From Streptomyces sp. PTY087I2 (lineage in GTDB: Bacteria > Actinomycetota > Actinomycetes > Streptomycetales > Streptomycetaceae), in the NCBI RefSeq assembly GCF_001687325.1, contig NZ_LZRD01000003.1, positions 62,001 to 126,000 of the forward strand: DNA of 64,000 bases, in the 5' to 3' direction. Shown here piece after piece: positions 28,501 to 35,944 of this stretch (its first letter is position 1; each line of letters opens with the position of its first letter). The translations under genes and the position numbers were made by a program. The notes beneath the pieces are model-generated. The model was not told the origin of the DNA and ran no database searches. It saw only the letters and a program-made list of their open reading frames with translations.

Positions 28501-29413
28501 CGAGGTAGGTGGTGAAGGCGAGGAACGTGCCGAGCGAGATCCGGCCGTGCAGGGCCATCCAGCCGCCGAGGGCGAGGACGGCGACCTGACCGAGGGCGGG
28601 GACGGCCTGGAGCGCCGGGTTGTAGCGGCCGGTGAAGCGGACGACACGGAGCCGGGAGGCGAAGAGGCCGCGGGCGCGTTCCTCCAGGCCGGCCAGTTCG
28701 CGGCCCTCCTGGCCGAAGCCCTTGACGACGCGGACGCCGGTGACGGTCGCCTCGACGGTGGAGGCGACCTCGGCGGCCTCCTGCTGGGCGTGCCAGTTGG
28801 CGGGGAAGAGGTCGCGGCGGCTGCGCAGGGCGATCAGGTAGAGCAGGGGGCCGACGACGAGGGCGACGACGGTCAGCAGGGGCGAGAGCAGCGCCATGAA
28901 GACCAGCGAGCACAGGAACATCAGGGCGTTGCCGGTGAGGTTCGGCAGGAACTGCAACAGGGTCTGGACGAGCGTGATGTCGGAGATGGACCGGCTCACC
29001 ACCTGCCCGGTGCGCAGGCCGTCCTGCTGGGCGCCGCCGAGCCGCAGGAGTGCGGCGAAGGCGTCGTTGCGCAGGTCGTACTGGACGCCGAGGGAGAGCC
29101 GCCCGGAGCGGTAGCGGCGGGTGAAGCTCGCGCCGAAGCGGACGGCCCCGAGGGCGGCGAGCAGGGCGATCCAGGGGGTGAGGGAGGCGGTGGTGCCGTC
29201 CGCCACCCCGTCCACGACATGGCGCAGGACGAGGGGCAGGGTGGCGGTGGCCAGGGCGGCGAAGAGCGCGGCGCCGAAGGCGAGGAGGAGGTCGGTGCGG
29301 TGGCGGAGGCAGTAGGCGAGCAGCCGCCGGGCCCAGCCGGGGGCGGGGGTCGGGGCGGTGCCGCCGCTCTGCGGCAGAGTGGCGGCACCGCTGCGCGTCG
29401 TACAGTCGGTCAC
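25574..29413 (-). CDS. Fused two-half ABC exporter (TMD-NBD-TMD-NBD)
   Basis: A 1279-residue full exporter made of two fused halves. Half 1: membrane domain about 40-330, Walker A GAAGSGKST (390-398), LSGGQ (494-498), Walker B LILDD (D518-D519). A linker of about 100 residues (592-690) follows. Half 2: membrane domain about 695-975, Walker A GATGAGKST (1056-1064), LSAGQ (1160-1164), Walker B LLLDE (D1184-E1185). Site 1 is degenerate: Asp replaces the catalytic Glu and Glu replaces the Q-loop Gln (YVFEES), while site 2 is canonical, as in heterodimeric exporters such as TM287/288. GTG start overlaps the monooxygenase stop. Cargo unknown. Confidence 0.92.
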   Translation of the reverse strand: MTDCTTRSGAATLPQSGGTAPTPAPGWARRLLAYCLRHRTDLLLAFGAALFAALATATLPLVLRHVVDGVADGTTASLTPWIALLAALGAVRFGASFTRRYRSGRLSLGVQYDLRNDAFAALLRLGGAQQDGLRTGQVVSRSISDITLVQTLLQFLPNLTGNALMFLCSLVFMALLSPLLTVVALVVGPLLYLIALRSRRDLFPANWHAQQEAAEVASTVEATVTGVRVVKGFGQEGRELAGLEERARGLFASRLRVVRFTGRYNPALQAVPALGQVAVLALGGWMALHGRISLGTFLAFTTYLGSFVTPVRQVATLLTVWQQARAGAERVLEVVDEAPVITDAPAARDLPDRPPALSWQDVTFRHGDGPPLLDGFTLDVRPGETLALIGAAGSGKSTAAALLPRFYDVPSGTVAVDGTDVRQLSLASLRSRIGYVFEESLLVSDTVRANIAYGAPDATDEQIRAAARTARADAFIERLPQGYDTVVGEQGLTLSGGQRQRIALARALVGDPAILILDDATSAIDARVEAEIHAGLHTETRRRTTLIVAHRRSTLELADRIAVLDGGRVADIGTLDELRSRSALFRTLLSTAEPTASEPVAQAPAGGVTADLWLRDAAAEGDTDESTAVRAAQALAEAAATSGPGRAGPGGGVLGSAPPSPELIAGLARLPLPEADPKVPTEQAVAADPAFHLGTLLRPFRLPLALGLLLVALDAAAQIAVPVLVRHGMDHGVARQAGGVLLAAAATACLVVAGNWLIGIAQVRTTGRTGERLLYTLRVKTFAQLQRLGLDYYERELGGRIMTRMTTDVDALSNFLQTGLITAVVSLLTVLGVLVALLVIDAGLAVVLLLALPVLIGATVLFRHYSVPAYREARERVSAVNACLQENVTAIRVTQAFRREERNARDFAQLAWGFRDSRLRAQRYMGTFFPFVEFLGTLSAAAVLAVGAGQVRSGELSAGTLIAFLLYVELFFSPIQQLSQVFDGYQQAVIGLGRLRSLMRTPTGTPPAEQPLLVGKLRGEVEFDHVSFGYAGGGGREVLHGLRLRIAPGETVALVGATGAGKSTVVKLLARFYDPTTGTVRVDGHDLRDLDLPAFRRRLGLVPQEPYLFSGTVRDAIAYGRPDATDAEVEAAARAVGAHDMIAGLRLGYLTQVGERGRALSAGQRQLLALARAELVDPDVLLLDEATASLDLATERRVAAATDALCRRRTTVVVAHRLTTAARADRVVVLDAGTVVESGTHTELLAARGPYHQLWEAFRQTPQDHSTATTNELVKESAR

Positions 29414-30786
29414 CGGGCGCCCGCCGTGACCGGGCCGGCCGGGGCGGTGGCCGTGTCGAAGAGCTGGTTGGCGGGGCGCGGCAGGCCGTAGTGCTCGCGC
29501 AGGGTGGAGCCGGTGTACTCGGTGCGGAACAGGCCGCGCTCCTGGAGGATCGGGACGACCCGGTCGACGAAGACCTCCAGGCCCGAGGGGAGCACGGCGG
29601 GCATGATGTTGAAGCCGTCGGCGGCCCCGCTGTCGTACCAGTGCTCGATGGTGTCGGCGACCTGGACGGCAGTGCCCGCGAAGGTGCGGTGGCCGCGTCC
29701 GCCGCCGAGCCGCCCGATGAGTTGACGTACGGTCAGTTTCTCGCGGCGGGCCAGCTCCACGATGAGGGTGTAGCGGCTCTTGGCTCCCTCGATCTCGTCC
29801 TCGGTGGGGATGTCCTCGGGGAGTTCGGCGTCCAGGTCCAGATCCTCGGGGGCGATCTTGAGGCGCAGGGCGAGCTGCCGCTTGGCGTACTCGGGGACGA
29901 TGAGCCGGTCCAACTCGGCGTCCAGTTCTCGGGCTTCGGCCTCGGTGTCGCCGATGACGGGGACGATGCCGGGCAGGATCTTGATGGTGTCGGGGTCGCG
30001 GCCGAGCGCCACGGAACGCGCCTTGACGTCCTTGTAGAAGGCGATGCCCTCCTCCAGGGTCTGCTGGGCGGTGAAGACGGCTTCGGCGTAGCGGGCGGCG
30101 AAGTCCTTGCCGTCCTCGCTGGATCCGGCCTGCACGAGCAGCGGGTAACCCTGCGGCGGGCGCTGGACGTTGAGGGGTCCGTCGACGCGGAAGAACTCGC
30201 CCCGGTGGTCGATGGCCCGGACCCGGTCGGCGAGCGCGTGGACGCCCTTCTCCTTGTCGGCGACGACGGCGTCGTCCGCCCAGCTGTCCCAGAGCTTGGT
30301 GGAGACCTCGACGAACTCGGCGGCGCGGCGGTAGCGCTCGCGGTGCAGCGGGGTGTCGTCCAGGCCGAAGTTGCGGGCGGCGTCGGCCCCGGCGGTGGTG
30401 ACGATGTTCCAGCCGGCCCGGCCGCCGGAGACATGGTCGAGGGAGGCGAACCTGCGGGCCAGGTTGTAGGGCTCGTTGTAGCTGGTGGAGGCGGTGGCGA
30501 TGAGCCCGATGTGCTCGGTGGCCCCGGCGAGCGCGGTGAGCAGGACGGTGGGCTCCAGCTTGGCGGCGGGGCGGCGGCCGGGGTCGCCCATCAGGACCGG
30601 GCTGTCGGCGAGGAACAGGGAGTCGAGGCGCCCGCGTTCGGCGATCCGGGCGAGGTTCTTGTAGTGCGCGATGTCGGAGCCGGCCTCGGCGGGACTCTCG
30701 GGGAGCCGCCAGGACGCCTCGTGGTGTCCGGTGGACATGAGGAAGGCGTTGAGGTGGAGCTGCTTGCGGGTCTTGGCTGCGGGCAT
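29410..30786 (-). CDS. LLM-class flavin monooxygenase (NtaA/DszA/SnaA-type)
   Basis: A 458-residue FMNH2-dependent monooxygenase of the nitrilotriacetate/dibenzothiophene-sulfone family. It begins RKQLHLNAFLMSTGHHEASW, and contains RRFASLDHVSGGRAGWNIV, YPLLVQAGSSEDGKDFAARY and FAGTAVQVADTIEHW, all typical. Such enzymes need reduced FMN from a separate reductase, and a flavin reductase gene is the first gene of the same strand run (33747-34247). With the SsuA/B/C-like importer between them, oxidation of a sulfonate, sulfone or related organosulfur compound is the likely role. GGAG precedes the ATG. The stop overlaps the exporter start (29410-29413). Confidence 0.9.
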   Translation of the reverse strand: MPAAKTRKQLHLNAFLMSTGHHEASWRLPESPAEAGSDIAHYKNLARIAERGRLDSLFLADSPVLMGDPGRRPAAKLEPTVLLTALAGATEHIGLIATASTSYNEPYNLARRFASLDHVSGGRAGWNIVTTAGADAARNFGLDDTPLHRERYRRAAEFVEVSTKLWDSWADDAVVADKEKGVHALADRVRAIDHRGEFFRVDGPLNVQRPPQGYPLLVQAGSSEDGKDFAARYAEAVFTAQQTLEEGIAFYKDVKARSVALGRDPDTIKILPGIVPVIGDTEAEARELDAELDRLIVPEYAKRQLALRLKIAPEDLDLDAELPEDIPTEDEIEGAKSRYTLIVELARREKLTVRQLIGRLGGGRGHRTFAGTAVQVADTIEHWYDSGAADGFNIMPAVLPSGLEVFVDRVVPILQERGLFRTEYTGSTLREHYGLPRPANQLFDTATAPAGPVTAGAR

Positions 30787-30814: not shown

Positions 30815-30967
30815 GTTTCTGGGGGCGTACGGGGTGGGGACCGCGCGTCAGGCGGGCGCAGGCCGGGTTCCGGGGGCGTACGGGGGTGAGGACCCGCGTC
30901 AGGCGGGCGCGGGCGGGGTTCCCGGGGCGTACGGGGGTGAGGACCCGCGTCAGGCGGGCGCGGGCGG
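30815..30967. repeat. Three tandem copies of a 51-bp repeat
   Basis: Copies at about 30815-30865, 30866-30916 and 30917-30967, with the GTAC landmark recurring at 30827, 30878 and 30929. The last two copies are nearly identical and the first has diverged. The copy nearest the ATPase gene contains that gene's final codons and stop (TGA at 30950-30952); each other copy repeats the same tail and stop. They fill nearly all of the gap between the ATPase and monooxygenase genes. Confidence 0.85.
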
Positions 30968-31699
30968 CTGGGCGACCCCGAGGGCCGTGAGCAGGGTGTC
31001 GCGGTACTCCTGGAAGCGGGCGTCGCGGCGCGAGCGCGGGGTGGGCAGATCGATGGCGAGGTCGACGGAGATCAGCCCCTCGTCCAGGACCAGGACCCGG
31101 TCGGCCAGTTCCACGGCCTCGTCCACGTCATGGGTGACCAGGAGGACGGCGGGGCGGTGGCGCTCGTACAGTTCGCGGAGCAGGCCGTGCATCTTGATCC
31201 GGGTCAGCGCGTCGAGTGCCCCGAACGGCTCGTCGGCCAGGAGGAGTTCGGGTTCGCGGACCAGGGCGCGGGCGAGGGCGGCGCGCTGCTGTTCGCCGCC
31301 GGACAGCTCGTGCGGCCAGGAGCGGTCGCGGCCGGCGAGGCCGACCTCCTCCAGGGCGGTGAGGCCGCGTTCGCGGGCGCCCGGGCCGCGCAGCCCGAGG
31401 GTCACGTTGTCCAGGACGCGGAGCCAGGGCAGCAGCCGGGAGTCCTGGAAGGAGAGCGACACCCGTTCGGGGACGGTGAGTTCGCCCGATCCCTCGACGG
31501 TGTGGTCGAGCCGGGCGACGGCCCGCAGCAGGGTGGACTTACCGGATCCACTGCGGCCGAGGAGGGCGGTGAACTCCCCCGGCGCCACGCTGAGGTCCAG
31601 CTCCTTCAGAACGACCCGGTCGCCGAACTTCCGTACCAGTCGCCGCGTCCGGACCGCGGGCGCGGCCTTCGTGATCAGCCCGCCAGGGTGCGTCGCCAT
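30950..31699 (-). CDS. ABC transporter ATPase, SsuB/TauB-like
   Basis: A 249-residue importer ATPase: Walker A GRSGSGKST, Q-loop FQDSRLLPW, signature LSGGEQQRAALARAL, Walker B LLADEPFGALD, and H-loop VTHDVDEAVELAD. The FQDSRLLPW segment is typical of the nitrate/sulfonate/taurine group. ATG at 31699 lies inside the permease gene, a 25-base overlap that suggests coupling. The last codons form part of the 51-bp repeat array. It should power uptake of an organosulfur or related anion together with the permease and binding protein upstream. Confidence 0.92.
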   Translation of the reverse strand: MATHPGGLITKAAPAVRTRRLVRKFGDRVVLKELDLSVAPGEFTALLGRSGSGKSTLLRAVARLDHTVEGSGELTVPERVSLSFQDSRLLPWLRVLDNVTLGLRGPGARERGLTALEEVGLAGRDRSWPHELSGGEQQRAALARALVREPELLLADEPFGALDALTRIKMHGLLRELYERHRPAVLLVTHDVDEAVELADRVLVLDEGLISVDLAIDLPTPRSRRDARFQEYRDTLLTALGVAQPPAPA

Positions 31700-32568
31700 G
31701 ACAGGGCCCTCCTCTCGATGGCACGTACGCCCGCGTCGGAGGCGAAGCCGAAGATCCCGTAGGCCACCAGGCCCACGATGATCACGTCGGACTGCGCGTA
31801 CTGCTGGGCCTGGAACATCATGTAGCCGATACCGCTGGTGGCGTTGATCTGCTCGACGACGATCAGTCCGACCCAGGACGAGGTGACGCCGAGGCGCAGG
31901 CCGACGAAGAAGCCGGGCAGCGAGCCGGGGATGACGACCTTGCGGATGAACTGGGCACGGCCGAGGTCGAGTCCTTCCGCAAGCTCCACGTACCGGCTGT
32001 CGATGGAGGTCAGGAAGGCGTAGGTGTTGATGTACATGCTGACCGCGACGCCGAGCGCGATGACGGTCACCTTCATCTCCTCGCCGATGCCGAGCCAGAG
32101 GATCAGCAGGGGCAGCATGGCGAGCGAGGGGATGGCGCGTTTGATCTGGAGCGGTCCGTCGAGGAGGTACTCGCCGGTGCGGCTGAGCCCGGCGGCGACG
32201 GCGAGGACGACTCCGCTGACGACGCCGAAGAAGAGGCCGAGTCCCGCGCGCTGGAGGGAGATGAGGACGTTGTCCTGGAGGCGCCCGGTGGCGACCAGGT
32301 CCCCGGCGGTGGAGATCACGGTGCCGGGCCCGGACAGGATGCGCGGGTCCAGGTAGCCGGAGGCGGAGGCGGCCCACCACAGGGCGACGAGCAGGGCGGG
32401 GCCGATGAGCCGCCCGAAGGGCAGGGACCGGCCGGGCCCGAGCCGCCGCCGGGTGGACCGGGCGGCCCGGGTGCCGGGGTCCTGGGGCGGCTCCTGCGGG
32501 GGTGCGGCGCTCTTGGTGAGGACGGCGGGCCCGCCACCGGGGCGGGCCGTGGGCAGCAGGTCGGTCAT
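31675..32568 (-). CDS. ABC transporter permease, SsuC/TauC-like
   Basis: A 297-residue membrane subunit with about six hydrophobic segments. After a long Pro-rich cytoplasmic tail, the first membrane helix is LIGPALLVALWWAASASGY. The EAA-type loop is ELAEGLDLGRAQFIRKVVIP followed by GSLPGFFVGLRLGVTSSWVG, the pattern of sulfonate and taurine permeases. Its ATG overlaps the stop of a 26-codon micro-ORF (32565-32568), and its 3' end overlaps the ATPase gene. It belongs to the organosulfur operon. Confidence 0.92.
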   Translation of the reverse strand: MTDLLPTARPGGGPAVLTKSAAPPQEPPQDPGTRAARSTRRRLGPGRSLPFGRLIGPALLVALWWAASASGYLDPRILSGPGTVISTAGDLVATGRLQDNVLISLQRAGLGLFFGVVSGVVLAVAAGLSRTGEYLLDGPLQIKRAIPSLAMLPLLILWLGIGEEMKVTVIALGVAVSMYINTYAFLTSIDSRYVELAEGLDLGRAQFIRKVVIPGSLPGFFVGLRLGVTSSWVGLIVVEQINATSGIGYMMFQAQQYAQSDVIIVGLVAYGIFGFASDAGVRAIERRALSWRRTLAG

Positions 32569-32645
32569 GACGTCTCCGGGTGGTCGGCGGGTACGGACCG
32601 GTCGGCCCTGGCGTCTCCCGCGGTCGATGCGGGCCGGTCGGTCAT
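32565..32645 (-). CDS. 26-residue micro-ORF linking two transporter genes
   Basis: The reading frame MTDRPASTAGDARADRSVPA and six further residues (DHPETS) starts with an ATG overlapping the binding-protein stop (ATGA, 32642-32645) and ends with a stop overlapping the permease ATG (32565-32568). Both junctions look alike: the binding protein ends ETS then stop, with MTD next; the micro-ORF also ends ETS then stop, again with MTD. So it arose by duplication of about 77 bases at the gene junction. It may only serve to pass ribosomes from one gene to the next. No function as a protein is claimed. Confidence 0.45.
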   Translation of the reverse strand: MTDRPASTAGDARADRSVPADHPETS

Positions 32646-33724
32646 GACGTCTCCCGGTACTTCGCGGGTACGGATTCGGCGGCCAGGCCCTCGAAGCGGC
32701 GGTCGAAGAGGTCGGCGACGTCCTGCTTCGGCACGAAGCCGCCCTCGGCCATCAGGTCGGCGGTCTCCTGCTCCCAGGCGATCGCCTTGTCCCAGCTGAC
32801 CGGGAACTGCGGCTGGTGGAGGGAGGAGACGATGCGCCGGCCGTCGGCCTCGGAGACGCCCTGGTCCTTCACGTAGTACGTGTCGATCCACTCGTCGGAG
32901 TTCTCCCAGGCCCAGACGAGGCCCTTGGCCCACAGCGGGACGAAGCTGCGGACGGCGGCGGCCTTCGCGGGGTCGTTGAGGACCTCCACCGGGGCCCACA
33001 GCACGGTGAGCAGGTCGACCACGTCGGTCTTGACGCCGGTCGCGCCGTCCTTGCCGTACTGGTCGAGGTACTTGGTGAGGGTCGGCTCGCCCAGCGGAGC
33101 CACGTCGACCTGCTGGGACTGGAGGGCGGTGAGGAACTGGGTGCTGGGCAGCGCGACGAGTTCGACGTCGCTGTTCTTCAGCCCGGCCTCCCTCAGGGCG
33201 CGCAGGACGACGACGCCCTGGGCCTGGCCCTGCGAGAAGCCGATCTTCTTGCCCCGGAAGTCCTCCACTGAGGCGATGTCGGAGCCCGGAGCCGTGGCGA
33301 AGGTGTAGATGGGCCGGGGGCGCACCTGGACGGCGACGATCTTCGTGTCGACGCCGATGGCCTTGGCCTGGATCGGGGGAATTCCGGCGTTGGAGGCGAG
33401 GTCGATCGACTGCGCCCGGAATCCCTGGATGATGTCGGGTCCCGCGCTGAGGTTCGGCCATTCGGAAACGGTGAACGCCAAATCCTTTTTCAGCCCTGCC
33501 GGTTCCAGCTGAAGACGCGTCGTACGGACCGCGACGGTCAGCTTCGTACCCGGCGGCGGTGCGCCCGAAGGGAGTTTTCCGGCGGGTTCGGAACTGGCCA
33601 CGGTCTTGGCCTGCGGAGAGCAGGCGGCAAGGCCGATAACCGTTCCGGTGGCGAGGGCGAGAAAGGACCTGCGGCCCACGGTTCGGGTGGTGGCGGAAAG
33701 GTCGTTGGTCCGGTGACGAGGCAT
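32642..33724 (-). CDS. ABC substrate-binding lipoprotein, SsuA-like
   Basis: A 360-residue periplasmic-type binding protein anchored as a lipoprotein: GRRSFLALATGTVIGLAACS contains a twin-arginine-like start and a lipobox ending at C35. The mature part resembles SsuA/NMT1-type proteins (DFRGKKIGFSQGQAQGVVVL, LPSTQFLTALQSQQVDVAPL, GEPTLTKYL). It would capture the organosulfur substrate outside the cell and hand it to the permease. ATG at 33724 is chosen because the signal begins soon after. It follows the flavin reductase gene by 22 bases. Confidence 0.9.
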   Translation of the reverse strand: MPRHRTNDLSATTRTVGRRSFLALATGTVIGLAACSPQAKTVASSEPAGKLPSGAPPPGTKLTVAVRTTRLQLEPAGLKKDLAFTVSEWPNLSAGPDIIQGFRAQSIDLASNAGIPPIQAKAIGVDTKIVAVQVRPRPIYTFATAPGSDIASVEDFRGKKIGFSQGQAQGVVVLRALREAGLKNSDVELVALPSTQFLTALQSQQVDVAPLGEPTLTKYLDQYGKDGATGVKTDVVDLLTVLWAPVEVLNDPAKAAAVRSFVPLWAKGLVWAWENSDEWIDTYYVKDQGVSEADGRRIVSSLHQPQFPVSWDKAIAWEQETADLMAEGGFVPKQDVADLFDRRFEGLAAESVPAKYRETS

Positions 33725-33746: not shown

Positions 33747-34247
33747 TCAGAGGGAGTGGTAGGAGCCGTCGTGGAACAGCAGCGGGCTGCGGCCCTCGTC
33801 GAGCCAGGATTCGGTGACCCGGGCGATGACGATGCGGTGGTCGCCGGCGGGCACGATCTGTTCGGTCTCCAGCCGCAGCCAGCCGGCCACCCCGTCGAGC
33901 ACCGGCTCACCCCCGGGCAGCCGGCGCCAACGGGTGGGGGCGGCGAACCGGTCGATTCCGCTGGTGGCGAAGGTGCGGGCGATCGATTCCTGGTCGGCGC
34001 CCAGGAAGTTGACGACGGTGGAGGCCGCCACCTCGACATGGGGCCAGGAGGAGGTCGAGGTGCCGATGCCGTACGAGACGAGCGGCGGGTCCAGGGACAG
34101 CGAGGTGAGCGAGGTGGCGGTGAAGCCGACGGGTCCGCGGCCGGAGTCGGCGGTGACGACGACCACGCCCGCCGGGTAGCGGCGGAAGATCTGCTTGAAA
34201 CGGTCGGGGGAATGGACGGGGGCGTAGGAAGGCACGGTGACGGTCAA
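33747..34247 (-). CDS. Flavin reductase (FMN-dependent, HpaC/SnaC-type)
   Basis: A 166-residue flavin reductase-like protein that makes reduced flavin for the two-component monooxygenase. Motifs: FRRYPAGVVVVTADSGRGPV, GFTATSLTSLSLDPPLVSYG, VNFLGADQESIARTFA and the C-terminal DHRIVIARVTES. It is the first full-size gene of the run that includes the monooxygenase at 29410-30786. The start is uncertain: TTG at 34247 has GGGAGAG close upstream, and GTG at 34235 is an alternative four codons later. A Cys-rich leader peptide lies 144 bases upstream. Confidence 0.88.
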   Translation of the reverse strand: MTVTVPSYAPVHSPDRFKQIFRRYPAGVVVVTADSGRGPVGFTATSLTSLSLDPPLVSYGIGTSTSSWPHVEVAASTVVNFLGADQESIARTFATSGIDRFAAPTRWRRLPGGEPVLDGVAGWLRLETEQIVPAGDHRIVIARVTESWLDEGRSPLLFHDGSYHSL

Positions 34248-34391
34248 CGTCTCTCCCGGGAAGGAAGGAGGGGAATACGGGAAATGGGCGCACGGGGGCG
34301 CACAGAAACAAAGGCGCTGCCACCTGTTGCGGCCGTTACGGAATCCGCCAGGACTGGAGCGGCAAGGCGTCAGAAATGCGACGGGACGTTG

Positions 34392-34511
34392 TCAGGAACC
34401 CGGACAGGAGCGACAACGACAGGGCCGGGAGAAATTCCTCACCGGTTCAGCCGGGCGACAGCGGCGCACCGTGCGGGGCACGCTCTGCTGAATACGCTGT
34501 CGGCTGGTCAT
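34392..34511 (-). CDS. Cys-rich leader peptide of the organosulfur operon
   Basis: A 39-residue reading frame starting MTSRQRIQQSVPRTVRRC and ending RPCRCRSCPGS. Three of its four cysteines fall in the last nine residues, and all four are encoded by TGT, which is rare in this GC-rich genome. The ATG sits seven bases after a good -10 (GACAAT, 34518-34523), so the mRNA should start at or next to the ATG. It is Arg-rich like annotated putative leader peptides ahead of Streptomyces sulfur genes. Ribosome pausing at the TGT codons under cysteine shortage is the likely signal (inference). Confidence 0.65.
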   Translation of the reverse strand: MTSRQRIQQSVPRTVRRCRPAEPVRNFSRPCRCRSCPGS

Positions 34512-34517
34512 GAATCC

Positions 34518-34547
34518 ATTGTCCTGTGGGTCTGTCGGGCCGGTCAA
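34518..34547 (-). promoter_or_regulatory. Promoter of the leader and organosulfur operon
   Basis: On the minus strand, TTGACC (34542-34547) and GACAAT (34518-34523) are 18 bases apart. The expected start, six or seven bases past the -10, coincides with the ATG of the leader peptide at 34511, predicting a leaderless transcript. Confidence 0.6.
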
Positions 34548-34624
34548 CAATGCAACGTTCTGAATTAAGTCGGGTTCCGCACCGGCCGCGGAACGGGTCC
34601 CGCGGACGGGTCCAGGAGGCGGGT

Positions 34625-35944
34625 TCAGGAGACGGCGGGCAGCGCGGGCCAGGGCCCCAGCGGGTCCGTGTACAGCGCGCCGAGCGCCACCGCGCCGCCC
34701 GCCGTGGCCAGCACCGAACCGGTGAAGCTGCTGGGCACCACGGCCCGTTCGGGGTCGTCGCAGACCCAGGAGCGCCGCGCCACCTCGGCCCGCAGATCCG
34801 CCAGGCACTCCGGGAGCCGACCGGCTCCCGGCTCGACGACCACGAGGACCTCCGGGTCGAACATGTCCAGCAGCAGGGCCGCCGCCCGGCCGACGAGCAG
34901 GGCGCGGCGGCGGAAGAGCCCGAGGGCCCGTTCGTCGCCGGCCAGGGCCCCGTCGAGCAGTTCGGTGAACGAGCCGACGATCAGGCCCTGTTCGGCGGCC
35001 CGGCGCACCATGGCCCGCTCGGACACCTCCGACTGGAGGCAGCCGGTACGCCCGCAGGAACAGGGCTCGGCCCCGCCCGATCCGCCCGACCCCAGCGGCA
35101 GATGGGCCACGCTGCCCGCGCCGGAGCGGGGGCCGAGGTGCAGGCTCCCGGAGCTGGCGAACGCCGCGTCCACCACGGCCCCGACGAAGAGGAGGACCGC
35201 GCTGCCCCGGGTCGACGCCTCGCCGAACAGCTGCTCGGCCCGGGCCAACGCCCGGCTGTGGCTGTCCACATGGACCGGGAGGCCGGTGGCGGCTTCGAGG
35301 ATCTCGCGCACCGGGACGTCCCGCCAGCCCAGGTGCGGATGTTCGACGACGACCCCGGCGGCCGGGTCCACCCGGTGCCCGGTGGCGAAGCCGAGGGCGA
35401 GGACGGTCCGGCCGGCGGCGTGCGCGTCGACGAGCCGGGGCAGCCGGTCGGCGAGGTCGCGCAGCAGGGCGGGCCCGGTCGCCAGGCCGCGCGGGGAGCC
35501 GTCGGGGACGGTGGCGTACGGGCCACTCGCCCCGACGGCGTGCGGCTGCCGGTCCTCGGCGACGATCCGGCCGCGCAGGTCCATCAGCGAGACGGTGGAG
35601 TGCGCGACGGCGACATGGGCCCCGGCGACCAGGTAGCGGCCGGTGTCGATCTCCACGGGGATGTGGGGGCGGCCGAGCCCCTTGGGCCCGGCGGTCTCCG
35701 CGCCCTCCCGGACGAGCCCGCGCGCCAGCAGCTGCCCGACGTGGCCGGTGACCGCCGCCGGGGAGAGGCCGGTGAGCCGGGCGACGGTGGAGCGGGCGAC
35801 GGGCCCGTGGTCGAGGATCGCGCTCAGCACGGAGCCGGTGCCCTGGGCGCGGCGGGCGGGCCCGGCGGCCGGGATGTCCGAGCGACGCAGCGGGGTGGTG
35901 GCGCGGCGGTGGGGCACGGGCGGACGCTTCACTGGTGTCTTCAC
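34625..35944 (-). CDS. ROK-family transcriptional regulator
   Basis: A 439-residue NagC/XylR-type repressor. The N-terminal winged helix is GSVLSAILDHGPVARSTVAR followed by LTGLSPAAVTGHVGQLLARG. The sugar-kinase-like domain has the zinc motif CSCGRTGCLQSE, but the kinase Asp/GHT motifs look degenerate. Sugar or sugar phosphate sensing is the family's role. The GTG at 35944 opens MKTPVKRPPVPHRR. It sits just upstream of the organosulfur operon on the same strand, but a promoter between them (34518-34547) separates the two. Its own target may be the palindrome at 36210-36227. Confidence 0.85.
   Translation of the reverse strand: MKTPVKRPPVPHRRATTPLRRSDIPAAGPARRAQGTGSVLSAILDHGPVARSTVARLTGLSPAAVTGHVGQLLARGLVREGAETAGPKGLGRPHIPVEIDTGRYLVAGAHVAVAHSTVSLMDLRGRIVAEDRQPHAVGASGPYATVPDGSPRGLATGPALLRDLADRLPRLVDAHAAGRTVLALGFATGHRVDPAAGVVVEHPHLGWRDVPVREILEAATGLPVHVDSHSRALARAEQLFGEASTRGSAVLLFVGAVVDAAFASSGSLHLGPRSGAGSVAHLPLGSGGSGGAEPCSCGRTGCLQSEVSERAMVRRAAEQGLIVGSFTELLDGALAGDERALGLFRRRALLVGRAAALLLDMFDPEVLVVVEPGAGRLPECLADLRAEVARRSWVCDDPERAVVPSSFTGSVLATAGGAVALGALYTDPLGPWPALPAVS

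Follow-up and report, generated by a model that had tools for sequence, protein, structure and literature searches.

A conserved, putatively leaderless Cys-ended leader upstream of a candidate organosulfur operon in Streptomyces

We describe a short, Cys-ended open reading frame that lies ahead of a putative organosulfur (sulfur-scavenging) operon in a 64-kb stretch of Streptomyces DNA, referred to here as the window, and that we read as a leaderless, cysteine-responsive ribosome-stalling attenuator with a probability of about 0.85. This reading is preferred because of the conserved promoter, the conserved frame with its Cys cluster, the bias of the Cys codons toward UGU, a covarying hairpin, the replacement of the leader by others at the same place, and the operon context. 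In the scheme that we infer, from the start site and translation through to stalling and the direction of the response, transcription would begin on the ATG of the leader, as the geometry of the promoter suggests, and the ribosome would load at the 5′ end because the transcript starts on that codon. With charged tRNA-Cys in good supply, the ribosome would pass the terminal Cys codons, stop and leave, and the downstream operon would be expressed at a low level. When charged tRNA-Cys is scarce, the ribosome would stall on UGU codons that lie ∼4 to 9 codons ahead of the stop codon; the stalled ribosome would alter RNA folding or exposure around and after it, and the operon for organosulfur import and oxidation would be turned up. 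The adjacent ROK regulator, acting at a conserved box, probably governs initiation independently of this step. If the scheme is correct, ribosome-based cysteine sensing extends to organosulfur scavenging in this genus, via a leader family not recognized by current models.

The leader frame, its promoter and the operon

The features of the locus are collected in Table 1. A reading of the DNA made earlier from the sequence alone (the sequence-only reading) had described a 39-codon frame ending RPCRCRSCPGS, and this frame is present, from ATG 34511 to TGA 34392. The region then given, 34392-34547, was also right and spans the −35 element to the stop codon; the strand, left unstated at the time, is minus. 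When both strands of the whole window were searched for ATG frames of 8-50 codons with at least three Cys in the last 12, two were found, one of them the leader. All four Cys codons of the leader are TGT, which had been called the rare choice and is so in the window, where the genes contain 116 TGC versus 19 TGT. Given this usage, the chance of TGT at four of four Cys codons is ∼4 in 10,000.

Table 1. Positions of the features at the leader locus within the window
Feature	Position	Strand	Remarks
ROK-family regulator gene	34625..35944	minus	Pfam PF00480 ROK, 89.2 bits; directly upstream of leader, co-directional
Conserved promoter box, TTAATTCAGAACGTTGCATTGTTGACC	34542..34568	minus	Possible regulator half-site joined to −35
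Sigma-70-type promoter	34518..34547	minus	−35 TTGACC (34547-34542), 18 bp spacer, −10 GACAAT (34523-34518)
Leader ORF, 39 codons, MTSRQRIQQSVPRTVRRCRPAEPVRNFSRPCRCRSCPGS	34392..34511	minus	ATG 34511-34509, TGA 34394-34392; ends ...RPCRCRSCPGS
Hairpin P1 in leader ORF	34466..34481	minus	5 bp stem, 6 nt loop; codons 11-16
CTCCCGGC	34424..34431	minus	Predicted partner of downstream Shine-Dalgarno; window and three close relatives
C-terminal Cys codons C31 (34421-34419), C33 (34415-34413), C36 (34406-34404)	34404..34421	minus	All TGT; proposed stall site
Flavin-reductase ribosome-binding site, CCCGGGAGAG	34251..34260	minus	TTG start at 34247
Flavin reductase	33747..34247	minus	Pfam PF01613, 129.8 bits; first full gene after leader
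ABC substrate-binding lipoprotein, SsuA-like	32642..33724	minus	TIGR01728, 112 bits (below cut-off 163.5); PF09084
ABC permease, SsuC-like	31675..32568	minus	Protein family
ABC ATPase, SsuB-like	30950..31699 (start approximate)	minus	Protein family
FMN-dependent monooxygenase, NtaA/DmoA family	29410..30786	minus	TIGR03860, 559 bits (above cut-off 279.7)

The −35/−10 pair that had been said to place the start of transcription at the ATG is present. A scan of positions 34100-34700 returned exactly one sigma-70-type site, compared with a mean of 0.0 in shuffled sequences, and its geometry was conserved in 30 loci. Since only six bases lie between the −10 element and the leader ATG, the predicted +1 falls on the A of this ATG, which would be a leaderless start.

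The conserved promoter box, written as TTAATTCA-n5-TTGCATTGTTGACC, was found at a single site in the whole genome and once per genome in 30 of the 393 genomes of the genus. A reversed control pattern gave zero sites across the same 393 genomes. The distance from box to ATG was 57 in 26 loci and 56 in 4 loci. At its start the box carries ACTTAATTCA (34561-34570), which equals, at 7 of 8 fixed bases, the reverse complement of TGAATnnAAT. This motif is the half-site of CysR and SsuR, two activators of the ROK type that act on sulfur and sulfonate genes in Corynebacterium glutamicum, and it sits just upstream of the −35 element in activated promoters (PMC2580772). The conserved box may be bound by the neighboring ROK protein.

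Genes for a binding protein, a permease, an ATPase and a monooxygenase follow the leader, in agreement with the importer-monooxygenase operon named in the sequence-only reading. Judged by protein family, the genes that the leader precedes are sulfur or cysteine genes, and organosulfur is a family-level reading of the putative substrate class. A GGGAGAG-like ribosome-binding site ahead of the flavin reductase was kept in nearly all orthologues. The same genome has a second flavin-reductase-like gene elsewhere (L002, G000:C58:1906-2270), with 69% DNA identity over the matched part.

Leaders in related genomes and known systems

At the fixed distance from the promoter box, one leader per genome was found in the 30 genomes. 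The orthologues range from 18 to 43 residues; many begin with MTSRQR, and the Cys cluster typically ends in SCCRPCPGxR, with CPG kept in many of them. Two checks proposed with the sequence-only reading, conservation of the Cys codons in relatives and TGT bias among orthologous leaders, both came out in its favor. The cluster close to the stop codon was kept in all 30 relatives, and the last 12 codons contained 71 TGT and 10 TGC. In contrast, Cys codons further upstream in the same leaders were 8 TGT and 20 TGC, so that the exclusive use of TGT claimed earlier stands for the window leader and not for all of its relatives. In the flanking genes the counts were 52 TGT and 122 TGC (Fisher p ∼8e-19 against the C-terminal cluster, a value computed from relatives that are not independent because of shared ancestry). 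Every C-terminal cluster has at least one TGT (30/30), and 26 of the 30 have it as their first Cys codon. Two leaders (L055 and L062) lack the last Cys codon and have the C-terminus SARVSR or PVRVPR in place of PCPGxR, a change that small sequence shifts apparently produced; two upstream TGT codons remain.

We also found the operon in ten other genomes in the order ROK, binding protein, permease, ATPase and monooxygenase, with no flavin reductase between. The ROK gene is again upstream in these distant versions, and in the ROK-linked loci the leader is still preceded by TTAATTCA, or a sequence close to it, with TTGAC after it. In most of this class the box starts with ATTTAATTCA, a full match to the reverse complement of TGAATnnAAT at the fixed bases. 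With the same kind of promoter, the leader site is occupied by unrelated Cys-ended leaders (MSPLTSCRTLCC, VVDLMRVARTRCC), the SCRTLCC type in eight genomes and the DLMRV...CC type (DLMRVxRxxCC) in two. These ten leaders (L072, L074-L077, L079-L081, L083 and L084) have TGC as their final Cys codon and TGT as the one before it; two further loci, L073 and L082, have a DLMRV-type leader with a single C-terminal Cys, and L078 has the leader HVDLRRQGSATC, which scores above the NF042934 cut-off. Compared across these loci, the leader sequence turns over, and the terminal Cys codons and the promoter layout persist; unrelated leader sequences occupy the same place at one operon.

The window leader had no NCBIfam match, including to NF042933, NF042936 and NF042934, in a profile search with E up to 1, and two orthologous leaders had no match to the NCBIfam leader families with E up to 10. 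Nothing in the window matched Rfam above the gathering score. On sequence grounds, the window leader is a family absent from NCBIfam and very probably a new family of a known kind of regulator. The precedent for leaderless polycysteine ORF attenuators comes from mycobacteria (Canestrari et al. 2020, doi 10.1111/mmi.14498, cited in PMC9031893 and PMC13236596). As reported, the mycobacterial ORFs (Ms5788A, NF042933; Ms4527A, NF042936) resemble the window leader in being short and leaderless (predicted here), with Cys codons near the stop codon, sulfur genes downstream and stalling expected. The window family has no sequence similarity to them, carries a dispersed CxCxxC or CCxxC in place of one polycysteine run, and contains a covarying hairpin inside the ORF. 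The window leader shares with NF042934 (cis_reg_atten, ‘putative leader peptide’) a short length, a Cys-containing end and a TGT sensor Cys, but it lacks the HVDLxRVxSxxC motif and does not match the model. Actinobacterial cys-operon leaders likewise carry runs of Cys codons near the stop codon with no evident terminator; however, they precede other operons, in Mycobacterium, Propionibacterium and Bifidobacterium (PMC1262725). The uORFC-8-2 motif upstream of cysS in Rhodobacterales is similar in its ribosome-mediated attenuation at tandem Cys codons, but it has an intrinsic terminator, and its prevailing Cys codon is UGC, opposite to the UGU seen here (PMC8632094).

The sequence-only reading had proposed a tunable cysteine or tRNA-Cys sensor. 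A sensor is supported by the leader and promoter conserved in 30 genomes, the Cys cluster, the TGT bias and the operon; that it is tunable we infer.

RNA structure and the possible output

In the alignment of orthologues, 94.5% of the cells of hairpin P1 are paired. Changes on both sides of the stem were counted in 17 cells versus 6.7 ± 2.9 in shuffled alignments, with none of 500 shuffles as high, and controls in which the hairpin was slid along all scored lower than the true position. P1 is missing in the three shortest leaders (L040, L047 and L060). Because some of the compensations change amino acids, for example at codon 11, it is apparently the RNA rather than the peptide that is selected at P1. 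This bears on the idea that the leader encodes a small functional peptide (e.g. metal-binding or regulatory) and is not a cis-acting sensor. The N-terminal MTSRQR and the C-terminal CPG retained in many relatives would suit such a peptide, but its middle changes in ways that keep the RNA stem, its length varies from 18 to 43 residues, and elsewhere unrelated peptides with a Cys-containing end take its place at this site. We consider a functional peptide very improbable.

Two kinds of output were considered for a stalling attenuator. In the Canestrari model, the stalled ribosome is said to free the downstream ribosome-binding site. In the window and its close relatives, CUCCCGG just before the C-terminal Cys codons is predicted to pair with the CCGGGAG Shine-Dalgarno of the flavin reductase. 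Predicted accessibility of the Shine-Dalgarno was 0.14 without a ribosome, rose to 0.28 when one was placed on the first Cys of the C-terminal cluster, and was 0.19 with a ribosome at the stop codon; the gain from the masking ribosome was larger in the three close relatives than in the window. In this clade the output may therefore be translational, with the stalled ribosome covering CUCCCGG. As a general mechanism we rejected sequestration of the Shine-Dalgarno, since the pairing is mostly absent outside the window clade. For the remaining orthologues, the Shine-Dalgarno is predicted to pair with nearby sequence or at other places, and the predicted effect of stalling is small.

The second kind of output is transcriptional. 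A classical trp-type transcription attenuator was rejected, since no conserved intrinsic terminator was found after the leader: terminators were scored in 6 of 29 gaps versus 3.5 expected. With the same sensor, a ribosome stalled next to the stop codon could instead block Rho loading on the gap, a mechanism that has been proposed for cys leaders of mycobacteria and that occurs in the tryptophanase operon. The absence of both a conserved intrinsic terminator and a conserved Shine-Dalgarno sequestration speaks for an output through Rho, as does a gap to the flavin reductase (144 nt in the window, 86 to 232 nt across orthologues) that is 42% C and 24% G and follows a Cys cluster right at the stop codon; Rho has also been suggested for cys leaders without terminators (PMC1262725). 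However, the flavin-reductase coding sequence is 43% C and 28% G, and because of this near equality composition does not single out the gap for Rho. An argument for Rho from composition was dropped, the gap being hardly more C-over-G than the coding sequence that follows, and we regard Rho-dependent output as possible while leaning against it.

UGU at the sensor codon

The use of UGU was also followed outside the window leader, in the curated leader families NF042934 and NF042933 (L087-L146 from the genus, L147-L203 from the class). NF042934 was found in all of 61 genomes from the genus and has eight matches in the genome of the window; NF042933 has one match there. Leaders were picked by best score and a motif expression, and the sensor Cys was defined as the residue nine positions after the Asp of the DLxR motif. 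Among these best-scoring, motif-matched leaders of the genus, the sensor Cys was TGT in 57 of 57, compared with 11 of 60 for other Cys in the same leaders. Outside the genus the figures were 29 of 29 for the sensor Cys, 13 of 71 for other Cys and 21 of 134 for nearby genes. In total the sensor Cys was TGT in all 86 readable cases, while other Cys of the same leaders were TGT in 24 and TGC in 107 of 131; these counts are inflated by relatedness and cover the loci that the motif expression recognized. Synonymous sites next to the sensor codon vary, and TGC prevails at the second conserved Cys (DLC). The earlier notion of an exclusive TGT does not hold in all relatives; the constant element is a TGT at the sensor position, in other Cys-leader families as well.

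Both Cys codons are read by one tRNA-Cys(GCA), and slower wobble decoding is a plausible reason for UGU. We tentatively suggest, at slightly less than even odds, that actinobacterial Cys attenuators, the window family among them, use UGU rather than UGC at the sensor codon because the G-U wobble by the single tRNA-Cys(GCA) heightens the sensitivity of stalling to charged tRNA. If true, codon identity would be a tuning element of the cysteine sensor. Because UGC dominates in the Rhodobacterales cysS leaders (PMC8632094), Cys attenuators do not in general require UGU. A UGU rule for sensor codons was not found in our search of a limited set of literature. The sensor codon is almost fixed as UGU although the genome strongly prefers UGC, and this contrast makes the choice between synonymous codons in attenuators a question that can be tested across many genomes.

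TGT might also be kept through RNA pairing of the Cys codons (5′ CGACAGCG with UGUUGUCG) rather than through decoding. In most orthologues, codons 4-6 could form a long-range helix of eight pairs with the Cys tract. However, this helix shows no covariation, other leader families have TGT just as firmly fixed, and among 57 of their leaders a downstream complement of the sensor codon was found in 1 versus 2.7 expected; we consider pairing an unlikely cause of the fixed TGT. As a separate observation, the 5′ segment itself (34495-34502, facing 34411-34418 in the helix) shows strong conservation, which extends to its rare Arg codon CGA.
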